A program made the translations under genes and the position numbers. From Sulfurovum sp. (lineage in GTDB: Bacteria; Campylobacterota; Campylobacteria; Campylobacterales; Sulfurovaceae), in NCBI GenBank assembly GCA_003978375.1, contig QNZW01000164.1:1-18795 (forward strand): a stretch of DNA of 18,795 nucleotides, read 5' to 3'. The notes under the pieces are model-generated. The model saw only the letters and a list, made by a program, of their open reading frames with translations, did no database searches and was not told the DNA's origin. Of this stretch, positions 1,447 to 15,558 are shown piece by piece; position 1 is the first letter of the stretch, and every line of letters begins with the position of its first letter.

Positions 1447-4095
1447 ATGAAACAAATAATCATTATCTTCTTTTTCTTCATGTCTATGCTTATGGGGTCT
1501 GTCGTTGTACCTGACAATTACAAAATACATAAAGATACACAATTAAGCTATGTCTATTCAGATGAATATACACATATTGTACCTGCGTTAAAAACATACC
1601 AAAGTATGATTATGAAACAGTATGAAAAAGAGTTTGGTTATAGCTTTGATACCACCATGTATGTGGGATTGGCTTCTCTTAACAATCAAATAGCCAATGG
1701 TATGTCCACACCTTTGCCTTTTAATTCTCAGCTCTATTTTGGTGCAGGAGCATCAGCTATAGATTATTTTGCAAGTCCTTCTTGGTTAAAAACACTGGCT
1801 CTACACGAAAGTGCTCATAATTTTCAGCTTAATGCCAAAGAAGCAAAACATAGAAAATTTTTATACAAATGGTTTGGCAATAGCTTTTTTAATGTTATGG
1901 GTATTGCTTTTCTCACTTTACCTAATCTAGCAGAGAGTTCTTTGATGTTTGAAGGCAATGCAGTCATGAATGAATCTCGTTTTGGTAATGGAGGACGACT
2001 TTATAGTGGTTATGCACTTGCTACTGTTGTCTCTTTGGCAAAAGCCAATCAAATCACACCAGCCCTTGTCTATAACCCTGTACAAATCTTTCCCTATAGA
2101 GAAAGATTTTATTTAGTAGGTGGATTTTTCCAAAAATATTTAGTTAAAAAATATGGTATACAAAAGGTCAATGGCTATTTTAAGGCTCTCTCATCACATT
2201 TTTTTACCATTTTTACCAATAAGATACATCAAGCATATTTCGGTAAAGATTTTGAAACTTTACTCTCCGAGTTTGCCCAGGATATGAAGCAAACACATCA
2301 AGACTTTCACAAAACCAAAGGAACGCTTATCTCTAAAAGTCAACTTCTCAATCCAATGAATAGTGATAGCCATGAGATTGTGGCATTACACTCTGATTTA
2401 CGCAGTGCTCCCAAAATTATGCGTTACAACAAAAGCACAGGAAAACTCTCTTATAAAAAAGGAAATTGGCGTAGTGGAAAGGTGTTCAAAATTGATAATC
2501 GCTACTATACCCAAACCACAGCACATACGACACCAGGTAAAATAGAGATGGGACTCTATGACAATACACTTAGACAAAAAGTAAAAAGTGGTTCCAAAAT
2601 ATTCCAAGGAGCACTCCCCGATGGCAGGGCTGTTTATTTTGATATCAGCACTTCTATAGAATCACCTAAAATATTTATAGAGGGTACATTTTATGACACC
2701 AGTCACTCTTCTGTCTATGTAAGTACTAAAGGAGATTTGTATTATTTTAAACAAAAAGGAAAGACAAGAACGTTATATAAAAACAAAAAACCTCTCTACG
2801 CTTATAAAGGAAATTATGGCTTTGTTTGTGATGTAGATTCTAAAGGAGATATCTATTTTATCGCCAAAAGTGAGCATGGATCTACAGCATATATGTATGA
2901 TGGCAGTCATACCAAACGTGTAGCCAAAGGAGATGATGTTTTTGATTTAAAACTTATTACCTCAAGCAAAGCTTTGGTTGCAACAGTAGGTGCAAAAGGG
3001 TATGAATATAGACGTATTTCTTTAGAAAATACCTTAGCAGATGTTGTAAAAACAGACTACGCTTTAGAAGAAAAAAATACACCCATAACTTCTTATACTC
3101 ACCTCTTACAAAGCAACTCCACCTTAAAAACATCACCCTATAGTACACTAGGAGAACTGCACTATGCTTATACCTCTCAAAATGCTTTTTACACAAAAAA
3201 GGATGGCTTTTTGTATCAAGGCTCTGCATATTTTGCAGATCCTCTTATGCGAAACCAACTCTCTTTGTCTCTTAGCTATGAAGAGCATAGACAAATCTTA
3301 GGATTGACCTACAGCAATAGCACGTCTCTTTTAGAGTATGGTGTTACAGCTTACGGCGTACATCATAGTGATGATTTTGCAACCAAAGAAAGAGATTATG
3401 GCTATGGATTGTATGCACAATATCCTTTTTTGCAAACAGGATATTGGCAGGGGAATGTCAAACTTGAATATATCAAAAAGTATGATTCATTTTACAGAAT
3501 CCCTACCACATTAAGTATAAATCTTTCCAATAAAAAACAGTTTGGTTACAGTAAGCTTCCAAATAGCCTAAATCAAGTTGATGCATTTATCTCTGAAGAT
3601 AGAAAAGCATATAATTATGGTATTTCCTATACGTTTTTACAAGATATAGGATGGCAAAGTCGCATTGGACTCAATGCAGCTTATCTAAAAAGTTCTACCT
3701 CCAATCAAGCATTAGAAAAAGGCATACGCATCAGCGATGGATATGCTGATATTCAAGATGAATCTGCACAATTATATATGCCATCACTCAACACAACACT
3801 TTATGCAAAAGAAGCCAAAAAACTAGCACTAAGTCTTTACAAAACATTTGATACCCCTTTGTACTTTTTTACTTTTCCACTCTCATTGCATAGAGAAACA
3901 CTTTATGCAAAACAAACCTATTATGATTTTGATTTAGAAAAGGAAAACAGACAATACAATGAAACCACCATAGGCATAAACAGTGATCTTCTTTTACTCA
4001 ATAAATTAGATTTCAGTTTTACAATTGAAGGTATTTTCAATAAAGATGTAGAAGATACCAAACAAATAAAAATAGGATTCTCAAAAGATTTTTAA
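1447..4095 (+). CDS. exported HExxH metallopeptidase-like protein with propeller and outer-membrane barrel
   Basis: The 882-residue product begins with a signal peptide (about residues 1-18, ending near MLMGS). Residues 120-124 read HESAH, an HExxH zinc-binding motif followed by NFQ, and 45 residues later comes MFEGNAVMNES with E169, the usual place and setting for the third zinc ligand of gluzincin peptidases. Residues about 300-540 contain short repeated strands such as KIMRYN, GDLYYF and GDIYFI, suggesting a TolB/PD40-type beta-propeller. From about 590 to the end, alternating aromatic strands and a final phenylalanine (GFSKDF) look like an outer-membrane beta-barrel. I infer a surface-anchored or periplasm-facing peptidase; the substrate is unknown. 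It is a single-gene unit with its own promoter, and its stop codon overlaps that of the convergent gene at 4092. Confidence 0.7.
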   Translation: MKQIIIIFFFFMSMLMGSVVVPDNYKIHKDTQLSYVYSDEYTHIVPALKTYQSMIMKQYEKEFGYSFDTTMYVGLASLNNQIANGMSTPLPFNSQLYFGAGASAIDYFASPSWLKTLALHESAHNFQLNAKEAKHRKFLYKWFGNSFFNVMGIAFLTLPNLAESSLMFEGNAVMNESRFGNGGRLYSGYALATVVSLAKANQITPALVYNPVQIFPYRERFYLVGGFFQKYLVKKYGIQKVNGYFKALSSHFFTIFTNKIHQAYFGKDFETLLSEFAQDMKQTHQDFHKTKGTLISKSQLLNPMNSDSHEIVALHSDLRSAPKIMRYNKSTGKLSYKKGNWRSGKVFKIDNRYYTQTTAHTTPGKIEMGLYDNTLRQKVKSGSKIFQGALPDGRAVYFDISTSIESPKIFIEGTFYDTSHSSVYVSTKGDLYYFKQKGKTRTLYKNKKPLYAYKGNYGFVCDVDSKGDIYFIAKSEHGSTAYMYDGSHTKRVAKGDDVFDLKLITSSKALVATVGAKGYEYRRISLENTLADVVKTDYALEEKNTPITSYTHLLQSNSTLKTSPYSTLGELHYAYTSQNAFYTKKDGFLYQGSAYFADPLMRNQLSLSLSYEEHRQILGLTYSNSTSLLEYGVTAYGVHHSDDFATKERDYGYGLYAQYPFLQTGYWQGNVKLEYIKKYDSFYRIPTTLSINLSNKKQFGYSKLPNSLNQVDAFISEDRKAYNYGISYTFLQDIGWQSRIGLNAAYLKSSTSNQALEKGIRISDGYADIQDESAQLYMPSLNTTLYAKEAKKLALSLYKTFDTPLYFFTFPLSLHRETLYAKQTYYDFDLEKENRQYNETTIGINSDLLLLNKLDFSFTIEGIFNKDVEDTKQIKIGFSKDF

Positions 4096-5600
4096 ACTAA
4101 ACTCTCCAACACTCTAGCAGCAGTTCCTGTTTTTTTGTTGTGTGGTTGGTATAAATAGTTGTGGGCTTTTTCAGGTATATGCGTGGGTATATCTAAGGCT
4201 TCAAATTCTTCTTTTGCAGACTGTTTTGCTTTAAATAGAGCCATTTGCACACGACTATAAAAATTTGCAGCACCTTCGCCTGAGGTTTCTATACTCAAAA
4301 AATTGGCCGAGGGGAAACGGTTGGTTACGAGTGACTGCACACCATCACTCACAGCAGAGCTTGGCATACATCCAAAAGGTTTGACAGAAATTGTTAAATG
4401 AGAGAGATTTTCTTTGACTGATTCGATGAGATGCGCCACTTCTAAGTGTCCTTCTCCTCCTTCACAATCTAGCGTATAGTATGTTTTTGCCAATGTTGCT
4501 AACTTCTGCATATTTGGAATTTCATACGCATGTAATCCAATCGCTTTGGCATAGAGAGTAAAATAGGTTTTTACTGCTGTTTTTGCCAATACAAGCAATA
4601 GACGACTTTTCGTATTTGTAAAATCTATTTTTTTATCAGTCTCTTTGGTCAAATTTTCTTGTTTTTGCAATTTACGTTCTGCTTCCCAAATACTTAACAT
4701 AAGACGATTCATAATAGGCTGAGGAATACATTCTGCCCCTTCGGCTTCTAAAAATTTATGAAGATTATAGTTCCCGTCCCCCTCTGTCATCGCTGCCCAA
4801 AACTCACCCATAACAAGTACTTTGGCTTTAGGCTGAAGACGATTGAGCTTTACTGCTGAGAGTATATCACGACAAGACCACAATGTTTTTGTAAGATTTT
4901 TTTTATCTTCAAAAGCCTGAGAGATACGTAAACGACATACTTCTATCGCTTTATCTACTGCACCTGCCTCTATTTCATAAGGACGCATTCTATAGCCTAA
5001 GATATTGATAATATCTCCAATAATAACAGCTTTAATCAGTGTAATAAAAAATTTTGGGCTAAAATTAAGCAGTTGTTTTGCTTCATCCTCTCCTTGGAAA
5101 ATACCTTTATCATGCTCAAAAGAGGTAATACGAAATCCATCAAACCCTGCATCATGCAGTGCTTTTTTGTACTCAGTTATATACATTCCAAAACGACAAG
5201 GTCCACAACCACCTGCGGTTACATAAACATATTTTGCAACAATCTCTTTGTTGCTTAATCCTGTTGTATCTCGTAAATTTTGTAAATATTTAACAAGGTT
5301 TCCAACAGTAAAATAGGTAGGATTACACTGTCCACGGTTTCCAAAAGCTTTACCTGTTTGAAAAGATTTAAAATCAGGATTAGGCAGTGCTATAAAGTTT
5401 TCACCCAAAGAGCGTAATGCACTTTGTATAAGCTTGTCTTGTAAAATAGTAAGTCCCCCAAAAAGAAAAACTGTCTCTTCATTGGAGACATAGGTGATAG
5501 GATCTTTTGGTACATCTCTCCATTGCCTAGCCTCTTGCCCTAAAAAATTTAAATCTCCATTTTTATCTGTCATTTTAATGCTATTACATGTAATACTCAT
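4092..5600 (-). CDS. 2-hydroxyacyl-CoA dehydratase/HgdB-like iron-sulfur protein (separate C-terminal module)
   Basis: This 502-residue cytoplasmic protein matches the C-terminal module of the giant 'acyl-CoA dehydratase activase-related' proteins, in which two activator ATPase domains, DUF2229 and an HgdB-like part are usually one chain. Visible landmarks are FLFGGLTILQDKLI (about 46-58), FGNRGQCNPTYFTVGN with C92, AGGCGPCRFGMY with C132 and C135, and KPFGCMPSS with C411; C379 is another candidate. Such cysteines hold 4Fe-4S or double-cubane clusters in HgdB, BcrB/C and DCCP proteins. It begins one base after the stop of the upstream ATPase gene, with a strong AGGAGAT ribosome binding site, so equal co-expression is expected. 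The substrate is unknown. No companion CoA-transferase or beta-oxidation genes are nearby, which argues against a plain amino-acid fermentation role. Confidence 0.8.
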   Translation of the reverse strand: MSITCNSIKMTDKNGDLNFLGQEARQWRDVPKDPITYVSNEETVFLFGGLTILQDKLIQSALRSLGENFIALPNPDFKSFQTGKAFGNRGQCNPTYFTVGNLVKYLQNLRDTTGLSNKEIVAKYVYVTAGGCGPCRFGMYITEYKKALHDAGFDGFRITSFEHDKGIFQGEDEAKQLLNFSPKFFITLIKAVIIGDIINILGYRMRPYEIEAGAVDKAIEVCRLRISQAFEDKKNLTKTLWSCRDILSAVKLNRLQPKAKVLVMGEFWAAMTEGDGNYNLHKFLEAEGAECIPQPIMNRLMLSIWEAERKLQKQENLTKETDKKIDFTNTKSRLLLVLAKTAVKTYFTLYAKAIGLHAYEIPNMQKLATLAKTYYTLDCEGGEGHLEVAHLIESVKENLSHLTISVKPFGCMPSSAVSDGVQSLVTNRFPSANFLSIETSGEGAANFYSRVQMALFKAKQSAKEEFEALDIPTHIPEKAHNYLYQPHNKKTGTAARVLESLV

Positions 5601-5601
5601 C

Positions 5602-8600
5602 TTATATCTCCTCTAAAGGCTGGGCATTTTGTTTTACTGCTGTGTTTGTAGCCTCTTTTTGTCTTTGAAATGCTACCCCATTTAAGGTTTTTTTATATTG
5701 TTCTAGCGTATAAGCAAAGGTTTTTACCCGTATTTTAATAGACCCACCTGGTTTATTTGCATCGATATCATGCAGAGTCAAATGTGGTGTACGCGAAGCT
5801 CCCAATATTTTATCAATAATAGCATAGGTTGGAGCATCATGTCCACACTTAAAAGAGCTTAAATCAAGTACAGCAACATTAGGGTGACGTGCAGAAAATT
5901 TAGCCGCCCATACCTTTTGTGCAGAGTTGGTTGAATAATTTTCTGCCCATACATCACGAATATCATAGGCTGAACTGATATACCCCTCTGTAATTTCTTT
6001 ATCAAAATATTGTGATAAATAGGCTTCATCTTTGGGGATAGCACGCATAGAAAGTGTTTTAAAGCCTAAAGATTGGAACTCATCTAATACTTCATGGTTC
6101 ATCCCTGGATCTGAGTGATATGGACGACCAAGAAGTAAAATGACTACTTCATTATTGGCTACAGCTTCATCTAGTATAGCACGTCCTTCAGCCATGATAT
6201 CTGCATCATTTTTATCAAGTGCTTTCCATGCCTGTTCTACTGCCCAATTACTCTCATCTTCAGTGATTTTGAGTAATGTTTTCCACGTAGCAAAGAGTTG
6301 CTTTTTAAGTAACGCTTTATTGTCAAAATTGAGTGCATCTTCCACATACTTTATATTTTTTTCTTCAAAAAGATTTTTTTCTTTTGTAAACGCAGAATAG
6401 ACTACTTTGGGTGTACCAGCAATAATAGGACAAGAGGTTTGTCCCATGGTATGCTTCACATATCCTGGCAATTCTGTCACTGCAGGAAACCATAGATATT
6501 CAAAGGCTTTACGCGCAAATTTTTTCTCATAAAGTAAGGCATAGACATGAGATTGTGCCACTTTTGCAGGATAACATGAATCTACAGAACCATATTTCGC
6601 ACCTTCTAAATACATATCTTCATTGGAAAAATCAGAAAAAATAATATGGTTAGGACTGATCTCTAATGCTTCTAAATAGGTACGTAAAAATGGAGCAAGT
6701 GAATAGATATTGAGCACTTTAGGAATAGCAATTTTAAGTTTACGCCTATAGGCTTTATCTTCAGCTGAACTTACATTAAAATTTCTTGTAAGCATTTTAC
6801 GCAATGTTGGTCCCCATCCTCCAAGTGTCACTTTTACTTCTTGTTCAGTAATGGTTGTTTGTGCTGTAGGTGATTTTTCTAAAGTGTATGTAGACCTAAA
6901 GAGTTCAGTTGCCTCTTTTTTCACAAGATTTGGTATCTGTGTTTGTAACGCTTTTCGAGAATCTTTGAGGCTTTTAAGTGCTTCATGTGACTCTACAGTC
7001 CCCTCTTCACAAGCAAATCCCGCGATATAACGTACAGATTTAGAACTTGGTGTTTGTGTATCTATAAATGTACGTGAACATTGAATACTACAAAAGTGAC
7101 AACGAGTAGACTCATCTGTTTTTGATGTATAGGTCATCTGCAATGCTTCTTGCATACCACAAAAAGTCGCATACCCACGCTGTGCCACCACCTCTTTTGC
7201 TTCAATAGCAGCACCATATGCACCTGCTTCTCCTGGATGAGGATGCACATCTACTTTGGCATGGGGTACATTGGCTAGAATATAATCTACTTGTGCTTTA
7301 AGGGCTGCTTGATTGTATTGTGTACCTCCTTGAAGCACAAAGTGATCACCAAATGCGGCAAGGTTTGGAGCTTGTACAACATATTGCCATACATTTTTAG
7401 GTAAGACTTTAGAGATACCTGCAAAAAGCTCCTCTTTGCTGTAGCCCTCTTTTTGGAAATTTACCCTGTCTGTATCTAAAAAGACTGCACACCCATAGTT
7501 AAATTTAGGGGCTTGTTTGGCTGCAAATGCAACATCTGCAAATGATTCAACAGGTACCCCAAACTGTTTTGCCATCGATTGAAGTAGTGTGCCATTTCCT
7601 GCAGAACACTGGTTAGAAAGACGAAAGTTTTTCATCATGCCATTTTCCATAAAGAGTACTTTAATATCTTGTCCTCCAATGTCGCAAATGACATTAATAC
7701 TCTCTCCAAATACTTTTTGTGCAGATTTCATGTGTGCAATGGTCTCTATGATATTCGCATCAGCATGTAAAGCACCATGAAGCACATCTGCTGCATAACC
7801 CGTCACGCCTAATCCTTTAATATCATAATAGTCATGTGGATCTTCTGCTTTAATTTTTTCTAAAAGTTCTAACGTATCTTCTATGGGGTTCCCTCGTGAT
7901 AGTTGATAGACTTTTAGAAGAAGATCGCCATTTTCATCACATATTACAGCTTTAGAAGAGGTTGAGCCACCATCAATACCTAAAAAACACGTGGTCTTTT
8001 TTGTAAGTATAGGTGGCACAAAGGGTTTAATGGCATATTTCTCTTTAAAGGCTTGTAGCTCTTCTTGATTTGCTACAAGGGGAGTGTCGCTATTATCATT
8101 TTGTGTTGCGCCCCCTGTATCTACCAATGTCTTAAGCTGTATCAATCCTGTAAACGGTTTGTCATTGTTGGCTTCACCTTCACCAAAAATGACTGCACCT
8201 AACGCTGCATAGTATTGTGCATTTTCTGGTACATTGACCAATGCGTTGATATTGTTTTTATCATATTCAATCCCTCGTTCATCCCATATCTCAGAAATAC
8301 GCATACGCCAACACTCTTGCAAAAAAGGCAAATAGGTATTTGGTCCTCCAAGCAACAACACGTTTGGCATCAGTGTATTACCACGTGTAAGGACTGTAAG
8401 GTTTTGCATCACAATCGCATCTGCCAATGAATTCATAATCTCATCACTTGGGACAGATGTTTTGACCAAGTTTACAATATCTGTTTCAGCAAACACTCCA
8501 CATTTGGCTGCGACATGATGAAGTTTGTCTGTTTGAAATTTAAGCTTTTGGACATCTTTTGCTTCCATTCCTACTTTCATCGTACATTTTTCTATCGTGG

Positions 8601-9030
8601 CACCTGTACCAGAAGCACACTTGTCATTCATAGAAGTAAGCACAGATTTTTTACCATCTTCGCTCTGTTTAAAGTGGATAATCTTTGCATCTTGTCCACC
8701 CAATTCTATCACTGCTCTTACATCAGGATGGTGATGCTCTACAGCCAAGACCACAGCATTGACCTCTTGTACAAACCGTGCATTAAGTGTAGGTGCAATA
8801 CGCGATGCTCCAGAACCTGTAATATAAACCTTATCTATGCCATTATATATCTCAGCATGTGTATATGCCAGTTCTTCAAGGAGTCTTAAGAGTGTAGGTG
8901 CTTGTTTTGTATCATGCACGGTATAGGCTTTTGCTACAATGTGAAATGCTTCATCACACACCACATATTTGACGGTAGTGGATCCTATATCTATACCCAG
9001 TGCATATTTTTTTGACATGACTTTAGTCAT
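5602..9030 (-). CDS. BadF/BadG/BcrA/BcrD-type tandem ATPase with DUF2229 (acyl-CoA dehydratase activase-related)
   Basis: The 1142-residue protein contains two ASKHA ATPase domains in tandem. The first shows LGIDIGSTTVK (11-21), ELGGQDAKI (109-117), NDKCASGTGA (C138) and AAKCGVFAETD (C177). The second shows GIDGGSTSSK (351-360), DIGGQDIKV (450-458), NQCSAGNG (C475) and GCAVFLDTD (C514). In HgdC-type activators two such cysteines per subunit hold a 4Fe-4S cluster across a dimer, so this chain could build one alone. A CxxCxxxC motif follows (C644, C647, C651), then DUF2229 with DSCYPAK (C819), TSCPII (C867) and FKCGHDAP (C1062). By family analogy it uses ATP hydrolysis to push an electron to very low potential for the adjacent HgdB-like partner. 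M5 is an alternative start; neither ATG has a strong ribosome binding site. It follows lgt by nine bases. Confidence 0.85.
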   Translation of the reverse strand: MTKVMSKKYALGIDIGSTTVKYVVCDEAFHIVAKAYTVHDTKQAPTLLRLLEELAYTHAEIYNGIDKVYITGSGASRIAPTLNARFVQEVNAVVLAVEHHHPDVRAVIELGGQDAKIIHFKQSEDGKKSVLTSMNDKCASGTGATIEKCTMKVGMEAKDVQKLKFQTDKLHHVAAKCGVFAETDIVNLVKTSVPSDEIMNSLADAIVMQNLTVLTRGNTLMPNVLLLGGPNTYLPFLQECWRMRISEIWDERGIEYDKNNINALVNVPENAQYYAALGAVIFGEGEANNDKPFTGLIQLKTLVDTGGATQNDNSDTPLVANQEELQAFKEKYAIKPFVPPILTKKTTCFLGIDGGSTSSKAVICDENGDLLLKVYQLSRGNPIEDTLELLEKIKAEDPHDYYDIKGLGVTGYAADVLHGALHADANIIETIAHMKSAQKVFGESINVICDIGGQDIKVLFMENGMMKNFRLSNQCSAGNGTLLQSMAKQFGVPVESFADVAFAAKQAPKFNYGCAVFLDTDRVNFQKEGYSKEELFAGISKVLPKNVWQYVVQAPNLAAFGDHFVLQGGTQYNQAALKAQVDYILANVPHAKVDVHPHPGEAGAYGAAIEAKEVVAQRGYATFCGMQEALQMTYTSKTDESTRCHFCSIQCSRTFIDTQTPSSKSVRYIAGFACEEGTVESHEALKSLKDSRKALQTQIPNLVKKEATELFRSTYTLEKSPTAQTTITEQEVKVTLGGWGPTLRKMLTRNFNVSSAEDKAYRRKLKIAIPKVLNIYSLAPFLRTYLEALEISPNHIIFSDFSNEDMYLEGAKYGSVDSCYPAKVAQSHVYALLYEKKFARKAFEYLWFPAVTELPGYVKHTMGQTSCPIIAGTPKVVYSAFTKEKNLFEEKNIKYVEDALNFDNKALLKKQLFATWKTLLKITEDESNWAVEQAWKALDKNDADIMAEGRAILDEAVANNEVVILLLGRPYHSDPGMNHEVLDEFQSLGFKTLSMRAIPKDEAYLSQYFDKEITEGYISSAYDIRDVWAENYSTNSAQKVWAAKFSARHPNVAVLDLSSFKCGHDAPTYAIIDKILGASRTPHLTLHDIDANKPGGSIKIRVKTFAYTLEQYKKTLNGVAFQRQKEATNTAVKQNAQPLEEI
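9017..9030. repeat. inverted repeat covering the start codon
   Basis: ATGACT-TT-AGTCAT is a perfect 6-bp dyad with a 2-base centre. It spans the first ATG of the tandem ATPase gene, and the second in-frame ATG (M5) overlaps its other arm, sharing two bases. It is too short for a stable hairpin with a 2-base loop, so it may simply be chance, or a weak operator-like site. Confidence 0.3.
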
Positions 9031-9039
9031 AGATACATC

Positions 9040-9858
9040 TTAAGAATGAGGGTGTGTCATAGCAATATTTTGATTCTTTTTTTTATAACTTATAAAAGCC
9101 CAAATCATCCATCCTATGCCTAAAAAAATTAAAGGCAAACTCAACATTTGACCTGTACTAAAAGGCAAATTAGTCGTATAGTCTGCTTGTCGTGTTTTGG
9201 TATATTCTAATAAAAATCTCACTGTGAACATATAGGTTAAAAAAATAGCAGGAAGTATTTTTGTAGCAAATGTTGGTGAGACTCTACGATAAACAAATAC
9301 AAGTATCACAAATAAAAACAGATATGCAAATGCTTCATAAAGTTGCACAGGGTGTCTAGGTATCATATCGATACGTTCAAAAACAATAGCCCATGGTTTA
9401 TCTGTAGGTAAGCCAAGTATTTCTGAGTTAAAAAGATTACCAAAACGCACAAAAGCTGCCGTAAGAGCCCCTGGCATAGTCATACGAGAGAGAAGCCACC
9501 AAAAGGATTGATGGTAACGTTTGGCAAAAATATACAACGCTGCAATCACACCAATGAGCCCACCATGACTAGCCAAGCCCCCTTTCCATACTTTTAATAT
9601 CTCTAAAGGATGAGAAAGATAATACTCTGGTTCATAAGCAAAACAATGCATCAATCTTGCACCAATCACTGTACCCACAAGTACATACATAAGTAAATTA
9701 TCAAGTTCTGCTGGGTCTTTTCCTTCGCGTTTATAAATCCATTGAAGTAACCAAAGCCCCAAAAAGAAGGAGCCTACAAACAAAAGTCCATACCAACGTA
9801 ATTGGAATGGGCCTAATTCTAAAATCGTAGGATTAATATTCCAAACAAAATATTCCAT
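9040..9858 (-). CDS. lgt: prolipoprotein diacylglyceryl transferase
   Basis: Lgt is an inner-membrane enzyme that moves diacylglycerol from phosphatidylglycerol to the lipobox cysteine of prolipoproteins, the first step of lipoprotein maturation. The 272-residue length and multiple hydrophobic segments fit the family. Signature pieces are RWYGLLF near the N-terminus, GGLASHGGLIG (about 93-103) and RFGNLFNSEILG, the conserved arginine-GN-N-E block, followed by PRHPVQLYEA. The ATG has a good upstream AGGGGAT ribosome binding site. The gene lies 45 bases after trpA and nine bases before the tandem ATPase gene on the same strand, and a convincing promoter begins within the end of trpA. The lipoprotein at 110-571 is one probable substrate. 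Confidence 0.96.
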   Translation of the reverse strand: MEYFVWNINPTILELGPFQLRWYGLLFVGSFFLGLWLLQWIYKREGKDPAELDNLLMYVLVGTVIGARLMHCFAYEPEYYLSHPLEILKVWKGGLASHGGLIGVIAALYIFAKRYHQSFWWLLSRMTMPGALTAAFVRFGNLFNSEILGLPTDKPWAIVFERIDMIPRHPVQLYEAFAYLFLFVILVFVYRRVSPTFATKILPAIFLTYMFTVRFLLEYTKTRQADYTTNLPFSTGQMLSLPLIFLGIGWMIWAFISYKKKNQNIAMTHPHS

Positions 9859-13642: not shown

Positions 13643-14323
13643 ATGATTAAGATACTGATTATAGAAGATGACTCAGAACTTGCACTTATTTTAACCAATT
13701 ATCTTACAAAACATAATATGGAAATAATTGGAGCAGAAGATCCTTATCTGGGACTTTCTCTTTTAACACAACATGATTTTGATTTGATTATTTTAGATTT
13801 AACCTTGCCAGGCATGGATGGACTAGAAGTCATTCCTAAAATAAGAGAAATTTCTAATATTCCTATTATTATCTCCTCTGCACGTGATGATATTACAGAT
13901 AAGGTCATAGGATTAGAGCGAGGAGCAGATGATTATATGCCAAAGCCTTATGATCCACGTGAGTTGGTTACACGCATCAAAACCATTTTGAGACGTACCC
14001 ATAGCACAGAAACAAAAATAGACAAAAATGAAGCACTGTTTGTGGTAGATGCCAATGCAAGAGAGATACGTTTTAAAGGCAAATCATTAGAGCTAACTGC
14101 AGCTGAGTATGATATACTTTTTATGCTCTTTCAGCACAAAAATGGTTCTGTATCAAGAGAACAATTACTGTATGAAAGTGAACACATTGATGATGATTCT
14201 TCTATCAAAAACATAGATGTAATTATCTCACGTATACGCCAAAAAATTGCAAAAATTGATGCAGAAAATATCTATATAAAACCCATTCGTGGGGTAGGCT
14301 ATCTTTTAACAGACCGTCAATGA
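13643..14323 (+). CDS. OmpR/PhoB-family response regulator
   Basis: The 226-residue protein has an N-terminal receiver domain (1-120) and a C-terminal winged-helix DNA-binding domain (about 128-225). Receiver residues are intact: acidic pair D9/D10 in IIEDDSE, phosphorylated D52 in IILDLTLPGMDG, S79 at the switch position in IISSARDD, and K101 in MPKPYDP. The effector ends with the RIRQKI and IRGVGYLL patterns of OmpR-type wings. When phosphorylated by the kinase encoded next it should bind DNA and change transcription. Its TGA overlaps the kinase ATG (ATGA), so the pair is translationally coupled. Targets are unknown; it resembles the ArsR-like acid-response regulators of Campylobacterota, but no stimulus can be read from sequence. 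Confidence 0.95.
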   Translation: MIKILIIEDDSELALILTNYLTKHNMEIIGAEDPYLGLSLLTQHDFDLIILDLTLPGMDGLEVIPKIREISNIPIIISSARDDITDKVIGLERGADDYMPKPYDPRELVTRIKTILRRTHSTETKIDKNEALFVVDANAREIRFKGKSLELTAAEYDILFMLFQHKNGSVSREQLLYESEHIDDDSSIKNIDVIISRIRQKIAKIDAENIYIKPIRGVGYLLTDRQ

Positions 14324-15558
14324 AAAATTTATCCGTAACTGCATTTATTCATACACTTTTTTCCGTAGCTATTATTATTTTAATTGCTACATTTTTACTT
14401 TTTCTTTCTTGGAATAAAGACCGTCAAAAAATAGAAGAGTTTAAACGCTATAAGTTAATCTCTATTACTTTTTTATCAAATATTGATCGACATTTCACCA
14501 AAGAAAAACTTGAAAATATTTATGAAGACCTAAAGGTACTTCCCTTAAACCCCCTAGATAAAAAAAAGATAAAAAAAGAGATTGCAATACATGGTAAAAC
14601 CATCTTTTCGGGTGGCTCATCTTTGGGAAAAGTACGGGTTTTCTTTTTAGATGACAATCACTATATTTATGTACAACGTATGGGGTATAACCTCATGCTT
14701 AAAGACAATAAAGCAAAGAATTATAACTTCCAATATGCTATTGCTATTGGACTTTTTCTTATTGCACTTTTGCTTCTTATTTATCTTGCTGTACTTAAAA
14801 AACTCTACCCTTTAAAACAATTACACAAACAGATACAAGGTTTTGCAAAAGGAGATATGCAAACAAGAATTACCTATAAATATGATGATGAGATAGGTAA
14901 AATTGCACAAAGTTTTGATGATGCCATTCTTTCTATTAACGAATTAAGTAATTCAAAAAATCTTTTTATGCGTAATATGATGCATGAACTCAAGACACCT
15001 ATCACAAAGGGGCGAATTGCAGTAGAGATGCTAGAAGATGAAAGTACCAAAAAAGTACTTGTCAGAGCCTTTGAACGTATGAATGAACTCATTTCCGAAC
15101 TGGTTGAGCTAGAGCGTATTACCACAAAAAGTTTTGAACCACAGTTTGAATATGTGATGCTAAGTGATCTTGTAAAAGAGAGTCAAGAATTACTGCTCAA
15201 TCAAGGATCAAATATCCAAACAAATTTAGAAGATATACATCTTATTACAGATAAAAAACTAATGATTTTAGTCATTAAAAATCTTCTTGATAATGGTTTG
15301 AAATATGGAAAAAACAAATCAGTTCTCATACAAACAAACCATAAAAACATAGAAATTATCTCTGATGGGCACAAGCTAGAACAACCACTCTCTTACTTTA
15401 CTGAACCTTTTACCCAACAAGAAAAAAGAAGTTCTGGATTTGGATTGGGGCTTTATATTGTCTCTAGTATCTTAAAAAAACTCGGATATAGATTGTCATA
15501 TCAACACAAAGAAGGAAAAAATATTTTTTCTCTTATCCCTTTAGAAAAAAATTTATGA
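14320..15558 (+). CDS. ArsS-like sensor histidine kinase
   Basis: The 412-residue membrane kinase has two transmembrane helices (about 10-29 and 139-158) enclosing a periplasmic sensor of roughly 110 residues, then a HAMP linker (about 160-212). The H-box is MRNMMHELKTPITKG with phospho-acceptor H222, wording typical of the ArsS kinases of Campylobacterota. The ATPase domain keeps an N-box, VIKNLLDNGLKYG, a short G1-like DG in IISDGHKL and a clear G2 box, GFGLGLYIVSSI. It should autophosphorylate and pass phosphate to D52 of the regulator encoded just upstream, with which it overlaps by four bases. The periplasmic sensor has no histidine-rich stretch, so an acid-sensing role like that of Helicobacter ArsS cannot be assumed. 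Its stop codon overlaps the end of the convergent Fe-S gene. Confidence 0.92.
   Translation: MKNLSVTAFIHTLFSVAIIILIATFLLFLSWNKDRQKIEEFKRYKLISITFLSNIDRHFTKEKLENIYEDLKVLPLNPLDKKKIKKEIAIHGKTIFSGGSSLGKVRVFFLDDNHYIYVQRMGYNLMLKDNKAKNYNFQYAIAIGLFLIALLLLIYLAVLKKLYPLKQLHKQIQGFAKGDMQTRITYKYDDEIGKIAQSFDDAILSINELSNSKNLFMRNMMHELKTPITKGRIAVEMLEDESTKKVLVRAFERMNELISELVELERITTKSFEPQFEYVMLSDLVKESQELLLNQGSNIQTNLEDIHLITDKKLMILVIKNLLDNGLKYGKNKSVLIQTNHKNIEIISDGHKLEQPLSYFTEPFTQQEKRSSGFGLGLYIVSSILKKLGYRLSYQHKEGKNIFSLIPLEKNL

Follow-up and report, generated by a model that had tools for sequence, protein, structure and literature searches.

A two-gene, putatively ATP-driven reductase with a tethered activator and a predicted 3+3 cysteine catalytic pair in Sulfurovum

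The contig QNZW01000164.1 from an assembly of Sulfurovum sp. (GCA_003978375.1; 228 contigs, 79% complete), analyzed here over its stretch of 18,795 nucleotides (the window), carries two adjacent minus-strand genes whose products we refer to as P1 and P2. P1 (5602-9030, 1142 amino acids (aa)) has two ATPase domains of the BadF/HgdC type, a four-cysteine element, and a catalytic module of the DUF2229 type, and P2 (4092-5600, 502 aa) is a putative second, HgdB-like catalytic module. We think it probable that P1 and P2 jointly make up a complete enzyme of the benzoyl-CoA reductase/(R)-2-hydroxyacyl-CoA dehydratase (BCR/HAD) superfamily that uses ATP to inject electrons, i.e., a one-electron reductase with a tethered activator. 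The domain order, homologies, cysteine conservation, and separate genes are read from the sequences themselves, and from these we infer the clusters, the complex, the electron path, and the net reduction. An earlier note on this DNA had described the pair as a two-gene version of a known fused protein with a set of candidate cluster cysteines; both open reading frames (ORFs) sit at the coordinates it claimed, and every cysteine number it gave is correct in the translations.

P1 scored 233.3 bits against PF01869 (cut-off 31.5) and 214.3 against TIGR00241 (cut-off 125.4), each over two stretches, and Pfam returned two BcrAD_BadFG stretches (E 4.8e-69) together with DUF2229 at residues 766-996 (E 4e-45). 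Both by sequence and by fold, the matches of the ATPase domains include HgdC (1hux), HadI (4eht), MbdP/MbdQ (9gai), and DCCP-R structures. ATPase domain 1 (residues ~9-285; 8176-9006, minus strand as for all P1 and P2 features) matches PF01869 and aligns to both MbdP and MbdQ, and ATPase domain 2 (residues ~346-618; 7177-7995) is homologous to HgdC and HadI by sequence and by fold search. The two domains are also homologous to each other (hhalign E 3.5e-37), with C138 (8617-8619) falling on C475 (7606-7608) and C177 (8500-8502) on C514 (7489-7491), and alignment to 1hux, 4eht, and 9gai places two cluster-type cysteines in each lobe (C138/C177 and C475/C514). An AlphaFold2 model of P1 had a mean pLDDT of 86.7 and a pTM of 0.80; fold searches with it retrieved ATPase-type folds and, among the 50 matches listed for each, no chain of HGD-D (PF06050, the BCR/HAD catalytic subunit), a result that excludes nothing.

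Conservation was assessed in an alignment of 179 P1-type rows including the window, made of 59 frames (longer than 900 aa, closed, and non-identical, from 64) and 120 fused proteins, the latter being the best 120 of at least 7996 scored matches to one query and so not representative of the family. C475 and C514 are cysteine in 179/179 rows and C138 and C177 in 178/179 (one gap), bearing out the earlier claim that both ATPase domains keep the HgdC-type pair, while 19 hand-picked nucleotide-site positions across both domains are kept in 172-179 of the 179 rows. The earlier note had said that cysteines not conserved among homologues would count against it; all those it named in P1 are kept in 177-179 of the 179 relatives, well above what chance would give. 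Because the ATPase domains are homologous to each other and the second of them to HgdC and HadI, a single P1 chain can, as predicted from these alignments, supply the 2+2 cysteines used by an HgdC homodimer.

Following the second ATPase domain is the four-cysteine element C644-x2-C647-x3-C651-x22-C674 (7009-7101). The CxxCxxxC at 644-651 had been called an extra feature and C674 had been missed; with C674 it is a family-wide element found in 177/179 relatives, C644 and C651 being cysteine in 179/179 and C647 and C674 in 177/179. The two exceptions belong to a distant type with its cysteines placed differently. A like motif (CNGCSNMC, with a later C, as read from the translation) ends the stand-alone activase of a three-gene locus in Monoglobus (L139), which encodes a DUF2229 protein of 329 aa, a P2-like protein of 407 aa, and a single activase of 330 aa, and is the single three-gene locus whose gene neighbors were seen. 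In this one case the element accompanies the activator, behind its ATPase lobe. The element may be an iron-sulfur relay or a zinc site. The distant type comes from two genomes of the same family (L107:1629-6356 and L108:2103-6812) and is a very distant fused relative of ~1570 aa, with a branch length of 7.3, in which the ATPase and triad cysteines are kept and the four-cysteine element is rearranged.

The putative catalytic part consists of the DUF2229-type module of P1 (residues ~726-1116; 5683-6855, with PF09989 at 6043-6735) and of P2. In the former, C819 (6574-6576), C867 (6430-6432), and C1062 (5845-5847) are cysteine in 179/179 relatives, and an alignment of 120 stand-alone DUF2229 proteins has exactly three columns with cysteine in at least 80% of rows, each at 120/120. 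In an alignment of 188 P2-type rows, from which a length filter had removed one fused protein, C92 (5325-5327) and C135 (5196-5198) are cysteine in all 188 and C411 (4368-4370) in 187 (one gap). C132 (5205-5207), which the earlier note had counted among the candidate ligands, is cysteine in only 61 of the 188, namely in 60/60 rows of the Sulfurovum group (labeled "Sulfurovaceae" here, our own label, which also covers assemblies titled Campylobacteraceae or Campylobacterota at NCBI) and in 1/128 others; a family-wide role for it therefore fails. Since C132, not C135, stands opposite the second HGD-D cysteine in one alignment, it might serve as an alternative ligand within the Sulfurovum clade. 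By these alignments, each module keeps three near-invariant cysteines at or near the site of a predicted three-cysteine [4Fe-4S] cluster. In BzdNO the catalytic [4Fe-4S]-OH2 cluster is bound by three cysteines (PMC11971306).

Judged by profile comparison, DUF2229 and P2 are distant copies of one another; at a still greater distance they also match HGD-D, P2 less surely than DUF2229. Pairwise hhalign comparisons gave E 6.9e-14 for DUF2229 against the P2-type, 1.5e-9 for DUF2229 against HGD-D, and 6.9e-5 for the P2-type against HGD-D, and four of four unrelated controls gave E 0.03-0.45. A first hhalign comparison of P2 and DUF2229 with 8 HGD-D proteins had found nothing (E 0.4-0.7); the kinship showed once 16 HGD-D proteins and the Monoglobus proteins as masters were used. 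With all cysteines masked, the three comparisons still gave 4.2e-11, 7.9e-9, and 5.6e-4, respectively, and in 3/3 of them the first and third cysteine columns fell within one residue of their counterparts. Profile searches with individual proteins pointed the same way: the stand-alone DUF2229 protein of Monoglobus matched PF06050 (E 2.7e-9), its P2-like neighbor matched DUF2229 (E 4.9e-14) and PF06050 (E 1.6e-6), and 7/12 P2-type proteins matched DUF2229 and 1/12 PF06050. Such stand-alone DUF2229 proteins are common (969/4047 candidates at E<=1e-3), and the 120 matches listed are 315-365 aa long, 109 of them bearing both PF09989 and PF06050. P1 itself has no PF06050 match at E<=1, and the kinship of DUF2229 with HGD-D is shown mainly through these stand-alone relatives. 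A profile of 35 of them found the DCCP chains 7yyl_C (6.3e-6) and 6eno_A (2.2e-5) and the HadC chain 3o3m_B (0.0047), the third DUF2229 cysteine falling on a cysteine in the three alignments shown to solved DCCP/HadC chains. A PDB search with an alignment that included full-length fused rows returned just ATPase matches, up to E 0.0011, owing to those rows.

Several observations weigh against the assignment of P1 and P2 to one complete enzyme of this superfamily with a three-cysteine site in each module. Neither Pfam at E<=1 nor NCBIfam at E<=0.001 recognizes P2, and a profile built from 12 proteins of the P2-type found no solved relative in the PDB, its best match being a periplasmic protein at E 0.049, so that P2 is tied to HGD-D mainly through DUF2229. 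Two of the four unrelated control alignments also laid cysteine on cysteine, and the pairing of cysteines alone therefore proves little; in the cysteine-masked alignments the second cysteine was off by 1, 14, and 4 residues. P2 also has a further cysteine, C222, which had been missed and is cysteine in 176/188 rows, though in none of the five two-gene rows from other Campylobacterota. Finally, the three-gene form shows that tethering of the activator is not essential.

The remote homology of stand-alone DUF2229 proteins to the two DCCP chains raises the question of whether P1 and P2 could be a DCCP-type enzyme, with an [8Fe-9S] cluster shared by the DUF2229 and P2 half-sites. The cysteine counts speak against this. 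The double cubane of BzdN(O) takes six cysteines from one subunit (Cys36/73/100/263/293/327; PMC11971306). In the double-cubane relative L140, C78, C108, and C335 are cysteine in 16/16 HGD-D proteins and C40, C273, and C302 in 11, 11, and 13; the equivalents of C78/C108/C335 are retained in DUF2229, and opposite C40/C273/C302 stand Q, L, and R (DUF2229 as master). With just three conserved cysteines per module (plus the frequent C222 in P2) and the other three double-cubane positions gone, where DCCP (NF040772) has six per subunit, a double cubane across DUF2229 and P2 was rejected, and we consider such an enzyme very unlikely. The predicted catalytic pair is 3+3, HAD-like rather than DCCP-like, and would have no double cubane; HADs have an activator with 2+2 and a dehydratase with 3+3 cysteines (PMC8473912). 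Of the suggestion that DUF2229 and P2 offer two half-sites for single or double-cubane clusters, the two homologous half-sites stand and the double cubane shared between them does not.

In the mechanism that we propose, the ATPase domains of P1 would fold back as a pseudo-dimer with one [4Fe-4S] cluster between them (C138, C177, C475, and C514), and ATP binding and hydrolysis would push one low-potential electron from this cluster into the DUF2229/P2 pair. Each catalytic module would hold a three-cysteine [4Fe-4S] cluster with one open iron (C819/C867/C1062 and C92/C135/C411), and one of these two irons would be where the substrate is reduced. The four-cysteine element (C644/C647/C651/C674) would be part of the activator, perhaps relaying electrons from ferredoxin if it is not a zinc site. 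Because the activator and one catalytic module share one chain, the P1:P2 complex would probably be permanent and ATP would be spent per electron, as in benzoyl-CoA reductase and unlike in the dehydratases, where it is spent once per many turnovers. The benzoyl-CoA reductase (BCR/MBR) types are described as permanent complexes (tetramers) and HADs as recycling one electron over many turnovers (PMC11971306).

The same 2+2 and 3+3 anatomy (PMC8473912) would also suit a true (R)-2-hydroxyacyl-CoA dehydratase, in which the same clusters recycle the electron for a net loss of water from an acyl-CoA, and many of the fused relatives are named "2-hydroxyacyl-CoA dehydratase" in their source databases. 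However, a tethered activator would better fit a per-electron reductase and point to net reduction, and, as the earlier note had also said of its surroundings, profile scans recognized no acyl-CoA fermentation gene in the scanned ORFs of the window, nor was one recognized in the conserved lgt neighborhood of relatives. We regard a dehydratase as distinctly unlikely.

That neighborhood is defined by lgt (9040-9858, minus strand; TIGR00544), directly upstream of P1. Of the 49 named loci that have P1, 39 carry lgt upstream of it in the same orientation, and 8 more start at a contig end; put differently, it is upstream of P1 in 39/41 named loci with enough upstream sequence, not being found in L043 and L054. 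Of the 39, 29 have trpA as well. By eye, and with ORFs of at least 300 aa, the neighbors look different in other Campylobacterota loci. An NCBIfam scan of the window identified, besides lgt, trpA, panB, ruvB, an AI-2E-type transporter, and a response regulator, and further genes encode a flavin-reductase-like protein, a HemN-like radical-SAM protein, a CCG iron-sulfur protein, and a carbamoyltransferase domain. The scan, which covered all but the ORF at 14320-15558, left two ORFs without a match, and none of the recognized genes points to the substrate of P1 and P2. Gene context accordingly yielded no substrate, the lgt/trpA neighborhood giving no small-molecule pathway. No PF01869 domain besides those of P1 and no HGD-D match were found in the host genome (79% complete).

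The lack of a small-molecule pathway in the neighborhood would also fit a pair that acts on a macromolecule or cofactor, either as a reductive activator of a metalloenzyme or, similar to TudS, in sulfur transfer with the open iron of a [4Fe-4S] cluster carrying sulfide. Precedents exist on both sides, as a [4Fe-5S] cluster is present in TudS, a BCR/HAD relative with a single domain (PMC11971306), and ATP-driven activation of corrinoids is known (PMC6739815). A purely non-redox role, in contrast, would leave two intact ATPase sites and a 2+2 cluster site without a task. We hold a macromolecular or cofactor target to be unlikely, if less so than a dehydratase.

The separation of P2 from P1 is a matter of gene layout. 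On the minus strand the junction reads ...AGAGGAGATATAAGATGAGT, with TAA at 5604-5602, a single base at 5601, and ATG at 5600-5598; the end of P1 reads AGAGGAGATATAAG, followed by the P2 ATG, and contains a ribosome-binding-site-like AGAGGAG (5608-5614) whose GGAG is at 5611-5608. These features were seen in the sequence as the earlier note had described them, and the TAA-G-ATG arrangement is a minor variant of translational coupling. With just one base parting the two frames, an assembly or sequencing error in a single fused gene of the known form (one chain of ~1400 aa) could be suspected. Nevertheless, P1 and P2 types are separate genes in 47/47 named loci holding both (of 58 named loci), so the split is no frameshift. 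The junction is a 4-base ATGA overlap in 26 of these, another overlap in 5, and a gap of 1-193 bases in 16, counted with mechanical start calls such that single values may be off. DUF2229 is present in 30/41 genomes of the genus, in frames of 1090-1187 aa in 27 and of 713, 834, and 947 aa in three, none of which reaches the length of a fused chain. A frameshift artifact was rejected on these grounds, and we give it practically no weight.

Outside the genus both layouts occur. A search of 200 Campylobacterota genomes found DUF2229 above the cut-off in 14 (host included), twice in a fused chain (frame lengths 1446 and 1486 aa) and 12 times in a frame of 980-1145 aa, and in the five of these matches that were checked (L100-L104) a P2-type gene adjoins the P1-type gene. 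In a family sample of 100 genomes, 44 matched, with 41 frames of 975-1218 aa, two of 1572 and 1579 aa that are of the distant fused type, and one of 207 aa. Fusobacterium animalis has the two-gene form (975 and 404 aa, one base between), and Haliovirga and Collinsella have fused genes. A tree of 34 hand-chosen rows, with three-gene forms left out and two-gene proteins joined end to end, needs two changes between split and fused, as few as which were seen in 0/500 shuffles. Of the two split clades, one consists of the Sulfurovum group and has a long branch, and the other unites Fusobacterium and two further Campylobacterota families. On this tree the two-gene layout has at least two separate origins or retentions in the sample and is not special to the window; the two-gene form split after DUF2229 is real, and it is not unique and occurs in more than one group. 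The family as a whole is large, with at least 8000 matches to P2 (8000/8000 scored candidates) and at least 7996 to a fused-form query (7996/7996). The DUF2229 search also matched Thermus composti and Deinobacterium chartae among control genomes; both are aerobes, which is surprising, since sensitivity to oxygen would be expected of this family.

Compared with known systems, P1 and P2 share with the (R)-2-hydroxyacyl-CoA dehydratases (HgdABC, HadBCI) two cysteines per activator lobe and three per catalytic subunit, and differ in that P1 joins both ATPase lobes to one catalytic module and adds the four-cysteine element, in that the catalytic modules are just remotely related, and in that acyl-CoA genes were not recognized near them. 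Like the class I benzoyl-CoA reductases (BcrABCD, BzdNOPQ, MbdONPQ), they combine two unlike ATPase lobes with a catalytic heterodimer, predicted in the case of P1 and P2, whereas BzdN has its six-cysteine double cubane and P1 and P2 three cysteines per module. The benzoyl-CoA reductase models scored P1 below their cut-offs (TIGR02259, 121.4 against 578; TIGR03192, 98.6 against 380.2; TIGR02261, 86.8 against 312.85), and none in NCBIfam matched P2. DCCP/DCCP-R (the NCBI name for the YjiM-type gene of L140) has an ATP-driven activase and a remotely homologous catalytic fold, while P1 and P2 lack three of the six cluster cysteines and are two different modules, not a homodimer. The fused ~1400-aa DUF2229 proteins, named "2-hydroxyacyl-CoA dehydratase" or "acyl-CoA dehydratase activase-related protein", and the Monoglobus form have the same domains, cysteines, and four-cysteine element. 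From the fused proteins P1 and P2 differ in gene layout and in sequence, P1 being 28-31% identical to 40 fused rows and the Sulfurovum group forming its own deep branch; the closest named relative is a Sulfurovum assembly with a P2 that is 84% identical. No open-licence paper dealing with the DUF2229/P2 family was found, as judged by title or the start of the abstract.

Some further arrangements were observed. On a plasmid of Ilyobacter polytropus (L137:2987-7141), genes for a 330-aa HGD-D protein and for an activase lie directly before queD-queE-folE-queC, which suggests an ATP-driven reductase in deazaguanine/queuosine metabolism. A plasmid of Sulfurovum mangrovi (L132:1574-9927) has two "4Fe-4S binding" genes followed by genes for an HGD-D protein, for an activase, and for a permease of the RND type, all between TonB-dependent receptors, and so holds a separate HGD-D/activase pair in the same bacterial group. 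On an Azoarcus plasmid (L134:4891-6948), a 685-aa gene that fuses one activase and one HGD-D domain adjoins a separate activase and HGD-D gene, giving another fusion of activator and catalytic subunit. Other activase/HGD proteins have been linked to selenium genes (PMC5322559). In the window itself, an 882-aa ORF (1447-4095, plus strand) without a Pfam or NCBIfam match at E<=0.001 has, by eye, a signal-like start and a HESAHN zinc-peptidase-like motif; it converges with P2 tail to tail, their ends overlapping by four bases.

Tentatively, and with more doubt than we attach to the P1/P2 enzyme itself, DUF2229 and the P2-type might form a further widespread BCR/HAD branch with a tethered activator, a 3+3-cysteine pair, and possibly a third, relay cluster, acting as a per-electron reductase of non-acyl-CoA substrates in microaerobic sulfur oxidizers and even in aerobes. 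The three-cysteine assignment predicts no double cubane and ~12 Fe per P1/P2, or 16 if the four-cysteine element binds a cluster, and the separate P2 would be a convenient handle for reconstitution. If the proposed enzyme is real, a large set of "uncharacterized" proteins, numbering at least in the thousands, would become a testable class of very low-potential reductases.

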